Assembly: GCA_937923965.1 (NCBI GenBank)
Contig: CALDTL010000096.1
Span: 1 to 43,520, forward strand
DNA length: 43,520 nucleotides
Direction of reading: 5' to 3'
DNA from: an uncultured Caulobacterales bacterium
Lineage (GTDB): Bacteria > Pseudomonadota > Alphaproteobacteria > Caulobacterales > Maricaulaceae
The position numbers and the translations under genes were made by a program. The notes under the pieces are model-generated. The model searched no databases, was not told the DNA's origin, and saw nothing but the letters and a program-made list of their open reading frames with translations. Below are positions 23,260 to 31,510 of this stretch, in pieces. How positions within the stretch are numbered: the stretch's first letter is position 1; the number at the start of each line of letters is the position of its first letter.

Positions 23260-23367
23260 TCGCAATCCGGTTGTATAGGCCTTATTAAGTAAGCGGGTGA
23301 TAGCGTCGATTTGGACTTGGGTTCAAGGAATCGTTTCTTACTTTTCATACGCAATGGAATTAAACTT

Positions 23368-25440
23368 ATGTGGCATGACCTAGCGGCCAAAATTAGACCA
23401 AAACTAGCCGCTTTCACGGCCCTTTTCGCCCTGATTTGTGCAACACTCTTGCCTCTGGCAGCGCAAGCGACCGTTCCGGCCCCTCGCCTGAAACCAGCGC
23501 CGCCCGCTATGTCAGCCTATATGAGCGAGTCGGATGCCCGTCGTTTTAGAAAAGGTTTGAGCAATGCCACTGCCCGCCGGTGGGCTAACGTTAGTCAGGC
23601 CATCAATCAAATTAACGACCCAACGGCAAAAGATATTCTGCGCTGGACAAGGGCAGCCAATGATCGGAACGCCCCGATCGAAGTTTTGACTTATGTGCAT
23701 CAGAACTTAGGGGATTGGCCCCGTATGACCACTGTGCGCGCTGAAGCCGAGAGACGCATGTTCGATGAAGCGTGGCCATCAACCCGCGTGTTTCAATGGT
23801 TTACGGGTCAATCCGAACCTGTATCGGGAGAAGGCAGAGCCGCACTGGCTCGCGCTTATTATGCAAAGGGTGATGACGTAAACGGGGATAGATATCTCAA
23901 ATTGGCTTGGCGCGAGAGCCGGTTGACCCGCGATAGGCAGAGGAAAATATTCGGACTGTACCGCGATAGGCTCACGAAAGAAGATCACGCAGCGCGAGCC
24001 GATCACCTCGTTTGGTCAGGATCTCGCCACTTCGAAAAAGCGCGAGCGCTTCTGTCTCACATGAACCGAAAGGACAGAGCCCTGATCGACGCGCGGATGA
24101 AACTTAGTCGAAATTCATCGGGTTTAAACGCTGCCGTCAACGCTATTCCTGATGACTACCTGACCGATCCGGGATTCGTTTATGAACGGGCTCGGTGGCG
24201 CCGGAAGAAAAAATCAAAGTCTTATGCCTTACCTGTCTACCTATCAGCGCGAACGGAACCTGCGTCTGAGCCCGGTAAAAAAGCGATGTGGCGCGAGAAA
24301 AAAATCATGACCTATTGGGCCATCTCTGAAAACGATCTCAAAGAGGCCTATCAACTCACGCTGCATCATGGATTTACCCGGGGGACGGAATTTGCGGAGG
24401 CGGAGTTTCTGGGGGGTTGGTTAGCTCTCACCGGGATGAATGAGCCAGACCGCGCGATTCGGCATTTTACCCGGCTCCGGGATGGTGTGGGCTCCCCCAT
24501 ATCACTTGCGCGAGCAAATTACTGGTTGGGCCGCGCCTCGGAAGCTCAGGGGAATGGGCAACACGTCCAGCATTATAGTCAGGCGGCACAATATCCGAAC
24601 ACCTATTACGGCATGTTGGCAGGGCTAGAGGTAGAGGGGCCGTCTCACAACATCAATCTACCACCAGAATACATTTCCGAACAGGACAAAGCGAGCTTCG
24701 CATCGGATAACCGCATTCATGCTTTGCGCCTGTTGGGGGAAGCTGGAGAGGAGCGTTTCTACTCCCAAATCAGCTATCACATGGACGACGAAGTCGAAAG
24801 CCTCTCCAAGCTCTCACTCCTTTCGGCTTTGGCAAAAGACTATGGTTTTATGCGGCCGTCTCTGCGCGCCGCTAAACAGGCTGGACGTTTCCAAACCATG
24901 CTAACCGAAAGCGGATATCCTCTCGTCGGCGCCATCGACGGTCTATCGAAACAAAAATTCGAGGAAGCCTTTGTCTACGCAATTGCACGTCAAGAAAGTG
25001 AATTTGCGCCCAATGCGGTTAGTTCGGCGAAAGCGTTCGGCTTGATGCAAATGATCAACAGCACCGCAAAGGCCACGGCCAGAAAACATCGCATTCCCTA
25101 TGACGTCAACAAGCTCGCGAGCGATGGCGACTACGCCGCGAAGATGGGGGCTCTACATCTAAATGACCTGCTGAAACAGTGGGATGGGTCCTATATTCTT
25201 GCGGCGGTCAGCTACAACGCAGGCCCTCACCGCGCCAAACAATGGATCAAGAAATATGGCGACCCGCGCGACGGAAATGTTGACGCGATTGATTGGGTGG
25301 AGAAAATTCCATTCTCGGAGACGCGAAACTACGTCATGCGCGTCATGGAAAATATGCAAGTTTACCGCGCGCGGTTGAATAATAATTACGCACCAAATCG
25401 GTTAGAGCGGGATTTAAGACTAGGACAACAAGGCTTTTAG
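23368..25440 (+). CDS. Soluble lytic murein transglycosylase, Slt70-like
   Basis: A 690-residue periplasmic lytic transglycosylase. A signal peptide spans about residues 1-34 (PKLAAFTALFALICATLLPL, ending AAQA). A long alpha-helical superhelix (about 45-520) follows, as in Slt70, and then the catalytic GH23 domain. The catalytic Glu543 is in ARQESEF, followed by AFGLMQM and AVSYNAGP. It cleaves glycan strands to 1,6-anhydro-muropeptides, which AnmK (1034-2134) could help recycle. ATG 23368 has GGAA at the right distance and yields a clean signal peptide; the frame extends to a TTG at 23311 but that adds 19 residues before it. Confidence 0.93.
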   Translation: MWHDLAAKIRPKLAAFTALFALICATLLPLAAQATVPAPRLKPAPPAMSAYMSESDARRFRKGLSNATARRWANVSQAINQINDPTAKDILRWTRAANDRNAPIEVLTYVHQNLGDWPRMTTVRAEAERRMFDEAWPSTRVFQWFTGQSEPVSGEGRAALARAYYAKGDDVNGDRYLKLAWRESRLTRDRQRKIFGLYRDRLTKEDHAARADHLVWSGSRHFEKARALLSHMNRKDRALIDARMKLSRNSSGLNAAVNAIPDDYLTDPGFVYERARWRRKKKSKSYALPVYLSARTEPASEPGKKAMWREKKIMTYWAISENDLKEAYQLTLHHGFTRGTEFAEAEFLGGWLALTGMNEPDRAIRHFTRLRDGVGSPISLARANYWLGRASEAQGNGQHVQHYSQAAQYPNTYYGMLAGLEVEGPSHNINLPPEYISEQDKASFASDNRIHALRLLGEAGEERFYSQISYHMDDEVESLSKLSLLSALAKDYGFMRPSLRAAKQAGRFQTMLTESGYPLVGAIDGLSKQKFEEAFVYAIARQESEFAPNAVSSAKAFGLMQMINSTAKATARKHRIPYDVNKLASDGDYAAKMGALHLNDLLKQWDGSYILAAVSYNAGPHRAKQWIKKYGDPRDGNVDAIDWVEKIPFSETRNYVMRVMENMQVYRARLNNNYAPNRLERDLRLGQQGF

Positions 25441-25482: not shown

Positions 25483-25512
25483 TTGACACATAAATATGTT
25501 CAGTGTTTGTTC
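25483..25512 (+). promoter_or_regulatory. SOS-type promoter: TTGACA with LexA box
   Basis: A perfect -35 TTGACA (25483-25488) is followed by GTTC-N7-GTTC (25498-25512), the direct-repeat LexA box of alphaproteobacteria. A -10 placed 17 bases from the -35 (25506-25511) falls inside the box, so LexA would block RNA polymerase. The box has eight fixed bases, so one or so chance matches are expected in a window this size; the promoter position and the DNA-repair gene behind it are the added support. Confidence 0.65.
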
Positions 25513-25571: not shown

Positions 25572-27773
25572 ATGCCTGCGCTGATCCATCACTCACATGT
25601 TCGATCTGAACGCCGACGTTTTCGCCGCGCCCAAGAGGGCCGCGCTTGGTCCGTGAAGGACCTACCGCAATTTTATTATCATAAAAACTTTTGTGACATT
25701 ATAAATCGAGTCGAGGCTGATCTGAATAACCTGCTGGGTGGTTCTGCATTGGATTTCATTCAATCATTCAAAAACTTAAGTTTTTCAGAGCAATGCGCTT
25801 ATATCCGGATGTGCGGGCGTAAGGGAAATCTCTTTAATATCGACCGATTTGACTACCCAGAAATTCCAAATTTGGCTGATCAGTTCCAAAGGTTGGCATT
25901 GCATGGCTTTGTTCGGAACGTGGATCGGGAAGACTATAAATCCTACCTTTACAGCCAAACAAAGACTGACCTTACGTTGATGATGTCAGACAGGCTAGGT
26001 GGGAGTCAGTTTAAAAAGTCTTGGAGCAAGGACAAACTTGTCAATACAGCTGTTGATGAAATTGCCTTTGAGGCACTCGCCATATCGGAAAACGTCTGGG
26101 TGCAGTGTCATGTCCAGACGCTCGACTGGATTTTATTTCTGCATTCCGGGTCCCTAGAGGATGGGCTGAAAAAACGCACGCTACGTGATCTTGGCCTTGT
26201 GAAAACACCGAAGTCCGGCCGACTATATGGCAAAAGGTTCGAAACGGCAGAGAGCGCACAAGCGGTTTGGTTTTACGCCACGCGGCTAAAAATGGCATCT
26301 CAACAAACAGACGCTGACCTTACGGCTCAAATAGACTCAATCGACGTTTGGCCTACCCCTTTGTGTAATAAAAGCCGCCGAAATAGAGATGAATGGCTCA
26401 ATAAAATTGGCCGAACCTTTGAGACACAAGGCCAGTCAGATCTTGCTTTACACGCCTATTCACATTCTGACGGTGAGCTTTGTAACGAGCGATGTCTGCG
26501 CCTGCGCTACAAACTAGGTCACAAAGACTGGGTTCAAACCCGCCTGATAGATATGATTGAAAACCCAAGTTCAGACGGAGAACATGGTTTTGCGCAAGAC
26601 TTTTATGCCCGAAAATTCAATAAAAAGCGAACATCCATTGTCACCGATATCTTACGAAATTCGCAAAGCATCACGCTGGACGAAGCGTTTAAACATCAAC
26701 CGGAAACCGCAGCCGTAAAGCACTATAATTCCCAAGGTTTAATCGCCGTGAGAGCGGAAAATGGCCCGTGGAGGGCCCTTTTTGGCTTATTATTCTGGGA
26801 CGAAATCTTTCCAAACCCGGCTTGCATGACTCCCTCCCCATTTCTCAGGACCGGTACGTTTTACGATCAGAATAAAGAGAGTATTGAAGCCAAGCTCGAT
26901 CAGTTAAAATGTCCAGAGAAAATCATTGTCAGACTTTTGAAAACCCTCGCCAGCCATTACGGAACACATCAGAGAATTTTCCGATGGGGGTCACGAAGTC
27001 TAGATCGCTTGCGAATATTGATTGAGCATTCTCCGAAAGGTGCTTTGGCGAAAATGTTGCGCCTCATGGCTCAAAATTGGGAAGAGACGAAAGACGGGTT
27101 TCCAGATCTGATGATCGTCGAGAACGAGATTTGTCGACTGGTTGAAATCAAGGCCGCCGGAGATGTGATCCGGCGGCATCAGTTAACACGCCTAAGACAG
27201 CTAAATTCGGCGGGTTTTCAAGCTGACATCCTTCAAATTGAATGGGCTGTGGACTCGGAGCAAACCTATGTTGTGGTTGATGTGGAAACGACGGGCGGGC
27301 GCCCCGGCCTGCACCGCGTGACCGAAATAGGCGCTGTTAAGATTAAAGGCGGCGACATCATAGAAGAGTGGTCCAGCCTGATAAATCCGCAGCGCTCCAT
27401 TCCCGCTAATATAACCCGGCTCACGGGAATTACCCAAGAAATGGTCGCAGATGCACCGATATTTGCCGAGGTCGTCGACAGTTTCGAGGCGTTCATGGGG
27501 GATGCGATTTTCGCCGCGCATAACGTCAACTTTGACTATGGATTTATCAGCGCTGAGTTTCAAATGGTAGACCGGCGGTTTAGGCATCCAAAGATTTGCA
27601 CATGTGCGTCCATGCGGAAACTCTATCCTGGGCACAGGTCATATTCTCTTAAAAATCTATGCCGGGATTTCAATATTGACCTCACGAGCCATCACAGAGC
27701 CCTCTGCGATGCGAAAGCCGCCGCAGGCTTGCTAAGGCTCATCAATGTGAAACGCCTCGAAAATCAAACCTGA
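25572..27773 (+). CDS. FAN1-like VRR-NUC nuclease fused to DEDDh exonuclease (733 aa)
   Basis: Two nuclease modules in one protein. Residues about 1-560 resemble bacterial FAN1: an N-terminal helical DNA-binding region, then WRALFGLLFWDEIFPNP (about 400-416, just after Glu396), and the VRR-NUC core with PD-(D/E)xK residues Asp512 (FPDLM), Glu525 and Lys527 (VEIKA), and a following HQLTRL. From about 563 comes a DnaQ/ExoX-type 3'-5' exonuclease with all five DEDDh residues: Asp570, Glu572, Asp655, His708, Asp713. FAN1 has 5' flap and 5' exonuclease activity on crosslinked DNA, so the fusion could attack both strand polarities. An SOS-type promoter lies upstream and no terminator is seen before crtE. 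I do not know a characterised protein with this architecture. Confidence 0.82.
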   Translation: MPALIHHSHVRSERRRFRRAQEGRAWSVKDLPQFYYHKNFCDIINRVEADLNNLLGGSALDFIQSFKNLSFSEQCAYIRMCGRKGNLFNIDRFDYPEIPNLADQFQRLALHGFVRNVDREDYKSYLYSQTKTDLTLMMSDRLGGSQFKKSWSKDKLVNTAVDEIAFEALAISENVWVQCHVQTLDWILFLHSGSLEDGLKKRTLRDLGLVKTPKSGRLYGKRFETAESAQAVWFYATRLKMASQQTDADLTAQIDSIDVWPTPLCNKSRRNRDEWLNKIGRTFETQGQSDLALHAYSHSDGELCNERCLRLRYKLGHKDWVQTRLIDMIENPSSDGEHGFAQDFYARKFNKKRTSIVTDILRNSQSITLDEAFKHQPETAAVKHYNSQGLIAVRAENGPWRALFGLLFWDEIFPNPACMTPSPFLRTGTFYDQNKESIEAKLDQLKCPEKIIVRLLKTLASHYGTHQRIFRWGSRSLDRLRILIEHSPKGALAKMLRLMAQNWEETKDGFPDLMIVENEICRLVEIKAAGDVIRRHQLTRLRQLNSAGFQADILQIEWAVDSEQTYVVVDVETTGGRPGLHRVTEIGAVKIKGGDIIEEWSSLINPQRSIPANITRLTGITQEMVADAPIFAEVVDSFEAFMGDAIFAAHNVNFDYGFISAEFQMVDRRFRHPKICTCASMRKLYPGHRSYSLKNLCRDFNIDLTSHHRALCDAKAAAGLLRLINVKRLENQT

Positions 27774-27838: not shown

Positions 27839-28753
27839 TTGGCTATTTCACTTCCAAAAACCGACGCTTTGAGCAACATTGAGACAATCCGCGGGCTCAT
27901 TGAAGCGCGCCTATCTCAAATAGTCCCGTCGGAAACGACATGGCCGGTCAGGCTCCATGAAGCCCAAAGACATGCCCTACTCTCGCCAGGTAAAAGGTTC
28001 AGGCCCCTTCTCTGCGTTTTTATCGCGCAAGGCGGCGGAATCAGAGATGGGCGCGACCTCGATGCAGCGATAACGACCGGTTGCGTGGCGGAGATGGTTC
28101 ATGCGGCGTCCCTTATTCTCGACGATCTACCCTGCATGGATGATGCAGACCTCCGCCGAAATCAGCCAACGACCCATATCGCTTTTGACGAAAGCACAGC
28201 TATTTTGTCAGCGACGGCATTACTCAACCGCGCCTTTGGGGTGCTGTCGAGGATGGATCAAGTCAAAGCCGAGAGGCGTATCGAAATCATCGATCTCCTG
28301 TCTTATGCCGTTGGCTCAAAAGGGCTGATTGCAGGGCAAATGGCGGATCTCGCCAATACCAACCAAGGCACAACAATTGCTGAAATTGAACGATTGAACA
28401 CCCTCAAGACGGGCGCATTATTCGATTTTAGCGTGGACTCGGCTGCTGTTTTGTCCGGAATGCACGCATCTCAGAGAGCGGCCCTCAAGGATTTTTCACA
28501 TCATTTGGGCCTTGCGTTTCAGCTGCTCGATGACGTCAAAGATGCCGTCATGAGCGATGCGCAAGCCGAAAAGTCTGTGAATCGCGATGTGGGTAAAGCG
28601 ACCATATTGGCGATTGCCGGGTCAGATGCCTCAAGGGACAAACTTTCGGATTATCTCCTGCATGCGAAAGCCGCCCTAAAACGCGCGGAATTGTCCAATC
28701 TGGAAACGCTCAACATGATCCTGGATCATCAATTCGCTTTCTTACGCAGCTGA
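27839..28753 (+). CDS. crtE: Geranylgeranyl diphosphate synthase, CrtE-like
   Basis: A 304-residue trans-prenyl diphosphate synthase. The first Asp-rich motif is DDLPCMDD (Asp95-Asp96 to Asp101-Asp102), with the extra two residues typical of bacterial short-chain enzymes, and the second is DDVKD at about 230. The GKRFRP substrate-binding block lies at 51-56. The segment TTHIAFDESTAIL after the first motif resembles CrtE of Pantoea, and the neighbours are crtW and crtZ, which favours GGPP synthase for carotenoids over the general farnesyl synthase IspA. The start is TTG at 27839 with AGGA upstream; no ATG is near. It opens a packed six-gene cluster; 65 bases separate it from the nuclease gene, without a clear promoter. 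Confidence 0.78.
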   Translation: MAISLPKTDALSNIETIRGLIEARLSQIVPSETTWPVRLHEAQRHALLSPGKRFRPLLCVFIAQGGGIRDGRDLDAAITTGCVAEMVHAASLILDDLPCMDDADLRRNQPTTHIAFDESTAILSATALLNRAFGVLSRMDQVKAERRIEIIDLLSYAVGSKGLIAGQMADLANTNQGTTIAEIERLNTLKTGALFDFSVDSAAVLSGMHASQRAALKDFSHHLGLAFQLLDDVKDAVMSDAQAEKSVNRDVGKATILAIAGSDASRDKLSDYLLHAKAALKRAELSNLETLNMILDHQFAFLRS

Positions 28754-28760
28754 TAAAGCC

Positions 28761-29693
28761 TTGCCCGCAACAATTCTAAAAGTGCGTGACCTGACAGTCG
28801 ATTATGGACAGCACCGAGCGCTGGATAACCTATCGCTGGATATACAGTCAGGTGATCTCGTGGGGGTTATTGGCCCAAACGGTGCTGGAAAAACAAGCTT
28901 CATCAGGGCCCTATGCGGACGACTGAAGCTGCAGGGCGAGATCAACATCAACGGCAAAGACCTCAAGGTCGGCACGGACAGACGTCAACATATCGCCCTC
29001 GTTCCGCAAGACATTGGCCTTTACCCGCATCTAACGGCCCAAGAGAACCTGGATGTCATTGGCCGGCTACTTGGCCTGAAAGACAAGCACGCTATTGCGG
29101 CAGCGCTTGAGGCGGTTGAAATGGGCCAGCACGCTAAATTACGCATATCTGAGATGTCAGGCGGCATGAAACGACGCATAAATGTGGCCGCCGCGATTCT
29201 GACAGACCCGTCGCTTATCATTTTCGACGAACCAACGGCAGGTGTCGATGCGCCCGCTCGGGATACTGTACACAGATTGGCGCGCAAGCTCGCCGATGAC
29301 GGAAAAGCCGTCATCTTGATTACCCATGAGCTTGAACAAGCAGAAGCCGTTTGTGACAAGGTTTTGGTGTTATGCGGCGGGAAGCGGCTGGCGTATGATG
29401 CTCCGTCCGAAATTCTGGAGAATAGCTTTCTGGGTCAACGCGAAGTAATGGTTCGCTATAGTCGTCCGCCGGCAGTGAATGTCTTCGATGCGATGAAGCC
29501 CTTTGCGTTTAAGCAAGGCGAGCTTCCGACGATTTGGATAGCTCTCACAAATGCTAATGAGGTAAGCTTCGTCTCGGCCTTTATGACTGCCTTAAATGGC
29601 GCGGACGATCTGGTTCGCGAGATTAGCGTTCGCCGGCCGGGATTAACGGCTCTGATGCACAGGATTGAAAAAACAGGGCAATTGTCACTATGA
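28761..29693 (+). CDS. ABC exporter ATP-binding protein in carotenoid cluster
   Basis: A 310-residue ABC-2-type ATPase. Walker A is GPNGAGKT (38-45), the Q-loop is in VPQDIG (81-86), the signature is MSGGMKRR (132-139), Walker B is LIIFDEP (152-158) and the switch is His189. The methionine/glycine signature is usual in ABC-2 exporters of the NatA/DrrA/YhaQ kind. The start is TTG at 28761, eight bases after crtE, and the stop overlaps the permease gene as ATGA. The C-terminal 100 residues form the extra domain common in exporter ATPases. The substrate is unknown; its place between crtE and crtW suggests a lipid or carotenoid, by inference only. Confidence 0.9.
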   Translation: MPATILKVRDLTVDYGQHRALDNLSLDIQSGDLVGVIGPNGAGKTSFIRALCGRLKLQGEININGKDLKVGTDRRQHIALVPQDIGLYPHLTAQENLDVIGRLLGLKDKHAIAAALEAVEMGQHAKLRISEMSGGMKRRINVAAAILTDPSLIIFDEPTAGVDAPARDTVHRLARKLADDGKAVILITHELEQAEAVCDKVLVLCGGKRLAYDAPSEILENSFLGQREVMVRYSRPPAVNVFDAMKPFAFKQGELPTIWIALTNANEVSFVSAFMTALNGADDLVREISVRRPGLTALMHRIEKTGQLSL

Positions 29694-30784
29694 TTTTTGC
29701 CGTGTTTAAAACTATGTGGCTGAGGCTTTGGCGAGACAAAGGGGCGCTTATTCTCGCTTTTGTCTTACCCGGGTTTATTTTTGCTGTCTTCGCGGCGATT
29801 TTCTCTAATGCCTCAGGCGGAAATCTGGATTTGCGGGTTGCACTCGCAACACAATCCAATTCTGAGCAGACCCTTGATTTTGCAGAAAGAATAAAAACGA
29901 GCGAACTTTTTTCCGTCAGCTTTGATGAAAATTGGACAGAAAGCGACGTCACGCAACGCATTAGATTAGGCCAGGATGATGTGGGCGTCGTTTTATCAGG
30001 GTCGTTCAGCGATCCGAGCGCCGCGCCGATACAAATTATTCAAGACCCCAGCCGAAAGGTCGCTGCAACAGTCTTGAAAGGCCAAATTCGCCAAATGCTC
30101 GCGGGTCAATCTGAAACGGAAAACCGAGATTTATTCAAGACCGTTTCGGCCCTTAAATCCGAGAATGACTCGGCGCTCGAGGACCCAACGGTCACATATT
30201 ATATCGGCGCGACGGCAATTTTATTCCTGCTTTTTTCCGCCATGCAAGGCGCCGCCATTTCGATTGATGAAAGACGAAATGGGATCAGCGATCGCCTCAT
30301 GGTCGGCCCCACGGGCGCTTTCGGTATGCTTTCGGGGAAATTTGTTTTCTTATCCGTTATCGGATTTTTCCAAGCCGCAATCATTTGCGTTGTCGCCGCT
30401 TTATTTTTCGAGGTCCCCGTCCAACAGCATTTTTTCCCTGTCGCACTAGCCTGCCTTGGGGCGTCGGTTTTGGCCTCGGGCCTATCTTTGCTTGTTGCCG
30501 CCTTCTGCGAAACGGAAGCGCAAATGAACACGGTGAGCACCTTTGCCGTCTTACTTCTTTCAGCCATTGGCGGGTCGATGGTTCCGCGATTCATGATGCC
30601 CTCATGGCTTCAACAGATTGGCGTTGCCACACCAAATTATTGGTCAATCGAGGCATTCTACGGCATTTTGGCACGGGGACAATCGATCATTGATCTGCTA
30701 TCGGTGTGGGGCGTGTTGTTTGGCGGAGGGTTTTTATGCCTCGGCTTGGCCGCGCTCGTGTCGCATAAATTGATGAGGGTCTAA
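29690..30784 (+). CDS. ABC-2 type permease in carotenoid cluster
   Basis: A 364-residue ABC-2 permease, partner of the preceding ATPase. One N-terminal transmembrane helix (about 17-38, ILAFVLPGFIFAVFAAIF) is followed by an extracytoplasmic domain of about 125 residues and then a cluster of five or so helices (about 165-360). The segment ISIDERRNGISDRLMVGPTG between helices is the coupling element of this family. The architecture is that of NatB/YhaP-like exporters that move drugs, lipids or ions outward. The gene ends at TAA immediately before the crtW GTG, with no gap. Confidence 0.87.
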   Translation: MIFAVFKTMWLRLWRDKGALILAFVLPGFIFAVFAAIFSNASGGNLDLRVALATQSNSEQTLDFAERIKTSELFSVSFDENWTESDVTQRIRLGQDDVGVVLSGSFSDPSAAPIQIIQDPSRKVAATVLKGQIRQMLAGQSETENRDLFKTVSALKSENDSALEDPTVTYYIGATAILFLLFSAMQGAAISIDERRNGISDRLMVGPTGAFGMLSGKFVFLSVIGFFQAAIICVVAALFFEVPVQQHFFPVALACLGASVLASGLSLLVAAFCETEAQMNTVSTFAVLLLSAIGGSMVPRFMMPSWLQQIGVATPNYWSIEAFYGILARGQSIIDLLSVWGVLFGGGFLCLGLAALVSHKLMRV

Positions 30785-31510
30785 GTGGAAACGCAGACTA
30801 TGAAAGGTAAGCCTGTAAACATGGGACCCGCATATGCGGCGCTCATTTTTATTGCTTGGGCGGCCACCCATTTATACAGCCTTTTCATACATGAGCTGTC
30901 TTCTCCGATATGGATAACGGTTGGCCTTATCGCGCTGCAGTGTTGGCTCTACACAGGTCTATTTATTGTCGCGCATGATACGATGCATGGATCTTTTGCC
31001 CCGGGCAAAGCGCGGCTAAATGCTTTTGTCGGGACGTCCATCTTGTTTATCTATGCTGGATTTAATTGGCGCGAGATGAAAACCGCCCATCACGCCCATC
31101 ACGACTTTCCCGGAACAGATAAAGATCCTGATTTTAACGCAAGCAACCCCGAAGCCTTCTGGCCTTGGTATCTCAAATTCTTTCTGACCTATTTTGGATG
31201 GCGTCAATTCGGCATTCTTTTTGCCTTTACAATTATCTATATATTACTCGGTGCAAGTTATTTGAACACAATCGTGATGTGGGCGGTGCCGGCAATATTG
31301 TCTTCCGTGCAGCTTTTCTATTTTGGGACCTACCTTACGCATCGCCATAAGGCACCATTCCCCGACCATCATAATGCGAGAACGAATGATTTCCATTGGG
31401 TGGTCTCACTCTTGTCCTGCTTTCATTTTGGTTATCATCACGAACATCATCTATTCCCCCATGAGCCTTGGTGGAGACTGCCAAAACGCAAGAAAGCTCT
31501 GAGACCGTGA
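30785..31510 (+). CDS. crtW: Beta-carotene ketolase (CrtW)
   Basis: A membrane di-iron oxygenase (241 aa) that adds keto groups at C4/C4' of beta-ionone rings, giving echinenone, canthaxanthin or, with CrtZ, astaxanthin. All His boxes of the CrtW group are present: HDTMH (64-68), HHAHH (102-106) and HHEHH (218-222), with the CrtW-typical PGTDKDPDF (109-117) and HEPWWRLP (226-233) segments and about four hydrophobic helices. The start is GTG at 30785, directly after the permease TAA; an ATG at 30800 would shorten it by five residues. It overlaps crtZ by GTGA. crtB, crtI and crtY needed for beta-carotene are not in this window. Confidence 0.92.
   Translation: METQTMKGKPVNMGPAYAALIFIAWAATHLYSLFIHELSSPIWITVGLIALQCWLYTGLFIVAHDTMHGSFAPGKARLNAFVGTSILFIYAGFNWREMKTAHHAHHDFPGTDKDPDFNASNPEAFWPWYLKFFLTYFGWRQFGILFAFTIIYILLGASYLNTIVMWAVPAILSSVQLFYFGTYLTHRHKAPFPDHHNARTNDFHWVVSLLSCFHFGYHHEHHLFPHEPWWRLPKRKKALRP

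Follow-up and report, generated by a model that had tools for sequence, protein, structure and literature searches.

A gene on the forward strand of contig CALDTL010000096.1, from an uncultured Caulobacterales bacterium of the family Maricaulaceae (assembly GCA_937923965.1), encodes a 733-amino-acid protein in which a FAN1-type nuclease is followed by a DEDDh exonuclease. The whole stretch of DNA analyzed (43,520 nucleotides, nt) is called the window. The fusion gene occupies positions 25572..27773 of it, as delimited by its open reading frame, Pfam matches and alignment. It begins with a FAN1_HTH domain at residues 34–114 (25671..25913), which matched PF21315 with an E-value of 1.4e-16 and 60.5 bits (cut-off 27). 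Alignment and structure model placed the helical middle of FAN1 at residues 115–448 (25914..26915), where the catalytic residue E396 (26757-26759) is found. The VRR-NUC domain at residues 449–555 (26916..27236), with catalytic D512, E525 and K527, gave a significant match to PF08774 (VRR_NUC; E-value 2.1e-12, 47.6 bits, cut-off 23.8). A linker at residues 560–565 (27249..27266) leads to the DEDDh domain at residues 567–720 (27270..27731), which matched PF00929 (RNase_T) with an E-value of 8.7e-37 and carries D570, E572, D655, H708 and D713. All these features lie on the forward strand. The original prediction, made from the DNA letters and their translations, had proposed that one chain joins a FAN1-type nuclease to a DEDDh exonuclease, and Pfam, alignment, tree and model agree on this.

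Residues 31–561 aligned end to end with FAN1 of Pseudomonas aeruginosa (5y7g, E-value 2.9e-11), and the alignment with human FAN1 spanned residues 378–555. Because the N-terminal FAN1_HTH domain is present, residues 31–561 can be assigned as a full-length bacterial FAN1. The chain runs about 170 residues past the VRR-NUC domain as the DEDDh domain; the 21 sampled FAN1s without an exonuclease (lone FAN1s) end at VRR-NUC. Judged by its sequence, the FAN1 part would still qualify as a FAN1 with this extra C-terminal domain. Up to E = 1, the Pfam scan of the fusion protein listed five families, and none was a GIY-YIG domain. The Pfam scan found no polymerase part in the chain, unlike PolC and Pol III epsilon, which are linked to the replicative polymerase. 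The genome of the window contains one VRR-NUC match. A separate DnaQ-like exonuclease is encoded on another contig (G000:C167), and the cell thus has more than one gene of this type.

Both active sites had been read from the translation in the original prediction, and the alignment confirmed D512, E525 and K527 as well as the five DEDDh residues; E396 and the FAN1_HTH domain are additions to that list. E396, the fourth FAN1 catalytic residue, is matched in the alignment by the Glu of the human 'HGEG' motif. We take it to be the equivalent of human FAN1 E834 (construct numbering counted by hand). E396, D512, E525 and K527 were identical in all 52 aligned FAN1s (31 fused and 21 lone). D570, D655, H708 and D713 were identical in 31/31 fusions and E572 in 30/31, leaving the DEDDh site complete in 30. 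The exonuclease is the best conserved part of the fusions, because its mean pairwise identity was 0.62, against 0.38 for the HTH part, 0.35 for the middle and 0.42 for the VRR part.

The structure of the fusion was modeled using AlphaFold2 with a 40-row alignment. The mean predicted local distance difference test score (pLDDT) was 88.9, and the predicted template modeling score was 0.79. Model residues 28–563 matched P. aeruginosa FAN1 with 5'-flap DNA (5y7q) with Z 21.7 and a root-mean-square deviation (rmsd) of 4.2 over 522 residues; the match with human FAN1 (4ric) had Z 21.3. For the C-terminal half, the top solved match was the DEDDh domain of Staphylococcus aureus DinG (8zef and 9ii8, Z 22.8–23.1, 33–34% identity), with residues 561–729 fitting 9ii8 at Z 23.1 and rmsd 2.0 over 167 residues. 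DinG is a helicase-family protein. It carries its DEDDh domain at the N-terminus, whereas the fusion carries it behind FAN1. The next solved match was Pol III epsilon (2gui, Z 21.1). In the model, the last VRR-NUC strand covers residues 550–559 and the first DEDDh strand residues 566–573, so the two halves are joined by six residues. The linker was six residues long in 31/31 fusions, mostly with the pattern 'xDPxQx'. This constant length suggests a fixed joint and no flexible tether. The blocks flanking the joint had pLDDT values of about 92–94, a local measure of confidence that does not fix how the two sites are oriented to each other.

The FAN1 parts of 31 intact fusions and 21 lone FAN1s were used to build a tree. 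The fusion rows omitted L032 (same genome as L003), the interrupted L078, any additional locus from a genome that was represented, and the plasmid matches H2, H4 and H5. For the lone rows, 15 were selected from 37 lone loci, among those whose match to the window spans the greater part of the sequence. The other 6 came from 7 lone genomes of the search around a gammaproteobacterial carrier, of which G997 was dropped for its broken frame; further lone loci were left out of the tree. All 31 fusions fell on one side of a single branch (100/100; 100% of 200 bootstrap trees), and no lone FAN1 fell among them in the sampled tree. One lone FAN1 (L120) formed a long branch and was flagged by the tree program. 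The tree is unrooted, and strict monophyly of the fusions hinges on the position of the root. The DEDDh domains of the 31 fusions again grouped together in the exonuclease-domain tree (99/98), apart from one PolC-like frame and from 18 DnaQ-like matches of the window's order, which speaks against a proofreading domain of the PolC or Pol III epsilon kind. One gammaproteobacterial metagenome-assembled genome (L034, its binning taken as given) clustered with alphaproteobacterial rows (92/78). The simplest account of these sequences would be that the fusion arose once and was then passed on by descent, with some transfer between Alphaproteobacteria and Gammaproteobacteria.

Genome samples covered the window's phylum, and a peptide-pattern scan, plasmids and phages reached beyond it. 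Among 200 genomes of the order, the full-length fusion was present in the window's own genome, in 7/7 others of the genus, in 4/32 other genomes of the family, and in 0/160 from other families. The class sample (385 genomes) contained 4 with FAN1_HTH, all 4 fused, the own genome counted. In the phylum sample (398 genomes), FAN1_HTH was found in 55; 11 had the fused length, including one interrupted fusion (G214), and the remaining 44 had frames of 539–687 amino acids, which is lone-FAN1 length. Lone genes of this sample outside the tree were classed by frame length. In the order of one gammaproteobacterial carrier, 24/148 genomes had FAN1_HTH; 8 of them were fused, including one interrupted fusion. 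A contig scan with short peptide patterns, which detects close relatives only, gave 3 loci. With tblastn, 4 of 431 matching plasmid records (two from Bradyrhizobium, two from Pseudoalteromonas) reached a query coverage of 80% or more, compared with 0 of 195 matching phage records. How widely the architecture is spread had been left open in the original prediction. The answer is partial: the fusion is sporadic in Alphaproteobacteria and present in some Gammaproteobacteria, with other phyla hardly sampled.

Some single records were peculiar. In a Bradyrhizobium japonicum record, the fusion gene is annotated 'exonuclease domain-containing protein' with its start codon placed later. One genome (G233) has two copies (L070 and L071) at different places on a single contig. 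In the gammaproteobacterial locus L078 (G214:C4:3196000-3204000), the fusion is interrupted by an insertion encoding a transposase-like protein (IS3-like by reading), which leaves frames of 118 and 613 amino acids. Two phage matches, H11 and H12, appeared in tblastn to cover both VRR-NUC and DEDDh. H12 was rejected as a fusion: its frame has 1264 amino acids with the exonuclease in mid-chain, and the layout was read, with no family search, as PolC-like.

A LexA/SOS-type box, GTTC-AGTGTTT-GTTC, lies at 25498..25512 on the forward strand and begins 74 nt before the ATG. The original prediction had not included it. It is a perfect copy of GTTCN7GTTC, the LexA consensus stated for Caulobacter in the passages seen of PMC12700426 and PMC4211646. 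The starts of the 52 tree genes were searched for boxes in either direction, over the interval -250 to +90 relative to the open frame; equal intervals from the same loci, the window sequence itself excluded, served as controls, and lone counts refer to the 21 tree rows. The exact alpha-type box was found in 18/21 alphaproteobacterial fusions versus 1/379 control intervals (Fisher p 3.4e-27); since the rows are related, the p-values of this test are too small, which weakens the case for damage control. With one mismatch allowed, the counts were 20/21 and 67/379. The spacer letters, direction and distance of the box vary between relatives, so its conservation reflects more than shared descent of one stretch.

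The gammaproteobacterial LexA consensus is CTGTN8ACAG. With at most one mismatch, this gamma-type box was found in 9/10 gammaproteobacterial fusions versus 28/264 control intervals (p 5.4e-8), and dinucleotide shuffles expect 1.07/10. The exact alpha-type box occurred in 0/10 of these fusions. Conversely, the gamma-type box showed no clear excess in alphaproteobacterial fusions, either exact (1/21 vs 1/379) or with one mismatch (3/21 vs 24/379). The type of box thus appears to fit the host class, alpha-type in Alphaproteobacteria and gamma-type in Gammaproteobacteria. These putative host-class boxes lend independent support to a role in DNA damage.

In the window genome, a narrower pattern, GTTCN5TTGTTC, has sites beside an RmuC-family gene, two near-identical YifB/ComM-like genes, the fusion and recA, which follows its site by 115 nt. 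Another site lies where a DNA polymerase III alpha-like gene starts. One further site is next to an ImuA-like protein, whose score of 37.9 bits falls short of the curated cut-off (150). The two YifB/ComM-like genes (L131 and L135, on C119 and C202 of the own genome) each lie behind the same GTTCTTGATTTGTTC box; the pair could reflect either a duplication or mixed strains in the assembly.

Each half of the fusion belongs to a known family. P. aeruginosa FAN1 (4r89, 5y7g, 5y7q) has the same order of HTH, helical middle and VRR-NUC and the same E-D-E-K site. It is about 20% identical to the FAN1 part of the fusion and stops at VRR-NUC, without an exonuclease. This protein is PA1865, and PMC12796719, citing Gwon 2014 and Jin 2018, describes it in the passages seen as guiding the unhooking of interstrand crosslinks. 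The same source reports that PA1865 is induced by UV-C and ciprofloxacin, is repressed by hydrogen peroxide, and is listed outside the three known damage regulons. Human FAN1 is alike in the aligned catalytic residues and overall fold; it has no DEDDh part, and its domains are given in the text seen of PMC9635880 as UBZ, SAP, TPR and VRR-Nuc.

Two other systems combine lesion repair with an exonuclease of this kind. Cho+Exo fusions likewise tie a lesion endonuclease to an epsilon-type exonuclease. Their endonuclease has the GIY-YIG fold and their exonuclease is N-terminal, whereas the fusion here has VRR-NUC and a C-terminal exonuclease. They occur in Mycobacterium, other Actinobacteria and a few Betaproteobacteria, and PMC1564403, in the passages seen, reports the proposal that their exonuclease digests the damaged strand onward from the incision. 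MrfB of Bacillus subtilis is a DEDDh 3'-5' DNA exonuclease needed in the repair of mitomycin damage; it is a separate protein with a TPR tail and a partner helicase, MrfA, without a nuclease fusion, and its substrates are thought to be monoadducts or intrastrand crosslinks (PMC11194089, in the parts seen). In the open-licence PubMed Central (PMC) literature, in the passages retrieved, no study of a FAN1-DEDDh fusion was found; the papers dealt with FAN1 lacking such a fusion, VRR-Nuc effectors, other VRR-NUC fusions or different subjects. The fusions in PMC12721341 are different ones (BRO-N with VRR-NUC; helicase with PolB). The statement in the original prediction that it knew of no characterised protein of this kind fits this literature, within the limits of its coverage. 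Within the same limits, the combination of the two halves with a LexA-type box appears undescribed.

The gene probably codes for a DNA repair nuclease that is bifunctional and induced by damage. We infer that LexA controls the gene, that both activities exist, in what order they act, and that crosslinks are the chief substrate. On DNA damage, LexA would leave the box at 25498-25512 and the gene would be switched on. The N-terminal 560 residues would bind branched DNA (a 5' flap, gap or fork) as FAN1 does. Known FAN1s cut a 5' flap a few nucleotides past the junction and act as 5'-3' exonucleases (PMC4103454 and PMC9635880, in the parts seen). The FAN1 half is accordingly predicted to be a 5'-flap endonuclease and 5'-3' exonuclease, cutting the flap strand beyond the junction in the 5'-to-3' direction. 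As in known FAN1s, such cutting could carry on past an interstrand crosslink, unhooking it. The DEDDh half, on its six-residue linker, is predicted to be a 3'-5' exonuclease that would degrade 3' ends, in the simplest case the one at a FAN1 nick or one that damage has blocked. The 5'-3' activity cannot touch the 3' end left at the nick, and a DEDDh domain on the same chain could remove it. One protein would then widen the gap both ways and leave a clean primer end for repair synthesis. That both strand polarities are processed by one protein at a crosslink or fork, as originally proposed, is plausible. An enzyme that excises in two polarities is favored because the nick leaves a 3' end and because MrfB and Cho+Exo offer precedents.

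FAN1 matters for human crosslink repair, and it also matters in repeat-expansion disease. In the papers found, the bacterial FAN1 described is the Pseudomonas enzyme. That FAN1 is found naturally fused to a 3' exonuclease hints at the second activity it may require once the incision is made. The conserved LexA-type boxes would place the FAN1 fusion class in the SOS response, with the type of box following the host class.

Several observations weigh against a damage-induced nuclease with two activities. Three alphaproteobacterial fusions lack a perfect box: L005 and L011 have a site with one mismatch and L009 has none, and the control rate of 67/379 for one mismatch already weakens the sites of L005 and L011. 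The exact gamma-type box was found in only 3/10 gammaproteobacterial fusions, versus 0/264 control intervals, and the gammaproteobacterial L034 has neither type. Some lone FAN1s also carry the exact gamma-type box (2/21 vs 0/304 intervals, p 0.004), so the fusion is not alone in its damage control; with one mismatch, lone FAN1s were not above control (4/21 vs 30/304). The GTTCN5TTGTTC pattern was hardly enriched in the whole window genome, with 9 sites versus 6 for the reversed pattern, and 2 of the 9 were not by known repair genes (an AAA protein and a weak cupin match). The regulatory case therefore rests on conservation. The predicted model yields no distance between the two active sites. 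Finally, one relative, L072 (2703-4964, forward strand), carries a natural E572G change in the first exonuclease motif, with the remaining domain intact. By its sequence, this change would mean that the exonuclease is not indispensable in every relative.

Two views of what such a damage-induced nuclease does were weighed, together with one that denies the exonuclease a part in it. The gene may encode a nuclease for damage tolerance or recombination. Its FAN1 half would cut flaps and forks generally, and its DEDDh half would trim 3' overhangs before recombination or translesion synthesis, with crosslinks as one substrate of many. We regard this as a serious possibility, just short of probable. 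The box is common to recA and other recombination or polymerase genes of the window genome, FAN1s cleave 5' flaps in vitro (PMC4103454, in the part seen), and the sequence holds no pointer to crosslinks alone. What speaks for crosslinks is the unhooking role described for P. aeruginosa FAN1. On the narrower view, the fusion would be an SOS-induced, dedicated crosslink excision enzyme. FAN1 would unhook the 5' side and DEDDh, at a fixed distance of six residues, would remove the 3' side, with no recourse to UvrABC or an AlkZ-type glycosylase. We put this forward tentatively, as possible and somewhat doubtful. The LexA-type boxes point to damage control and say nothing for crosslink specificity. 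No AlkZ-type crosslink glycosylase (PF06224) was found in the window genome, which is 91% complete; the family is present in 5/14 control genomes. It is unlikely that the DEDDh domain serves chiefly as a structural element or to hold DNA, or that it is a separate housekeeping exonuclease mechanistically unlinked to the FAN1 half. The E572G change of L072 would suit such a domain. All five catalytic residues are kept in the 30 other fusions, however, in the domain that is the best conserved of all, and an invariant six-residue linker is unexpected for modules acting apart.

The genes around the fusion were named by reading their sequences, and for most relatives the flanks extended only about 1.5 kb on each side. 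A lytic-transglycosylase-like (slt-like) gene lies 5' of the fusion (23311..25440, forward strand) and a polyprenyl-synthase-like gene lies 3' of it (27839..28753, forward strand). Among the 12 nearest fused relatives, the polyprenyl-synthase-like gene was 3' of the fusion in 9 (7/7 of the same genus, G153 and L033) and the slt-like gene was 5' of it in 3 (L003, L004 and L033). The window order smpB-dapA-slt-fusion-polyprenyl synthase-ABC transporter-crtW-like was kept in L032 (the L003 genome) and L033, which have longer flanks. Fusions of other families had none of the window's neighbors alongside, save an ABC-transporter-like match in L072. Near the window, the fusion looks like a settled chromosomal gene.

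This setting in the nearest relatives argues against an anti-phage defence nuclease, which is very improbable. The DEDDh part does match DEDDh models in PADLOC, but the four matches are confined to the exonuclease domain (residues 562–728), and the gene bears a LexA-type box. A joining of two genes by sequencing or assembly error, for which nothing was found, is ruled out for practical purposes by the 31 intact fused genes from several families and two classes, which group together in the trees of both halves. Neither of the two results that the original prediction had named as fatal to it, a missing VRR-NUC match and halves that are separate in all relatives, was obtained.

Downstream of the fusion, positions 27839-31510 of the window hold the polyprenyl-synthase-like gene, a pair of ABC transporter genes and a gene resembling crtW (carotenoid ketolase), and this region looks like part of a carotenoid cluster.

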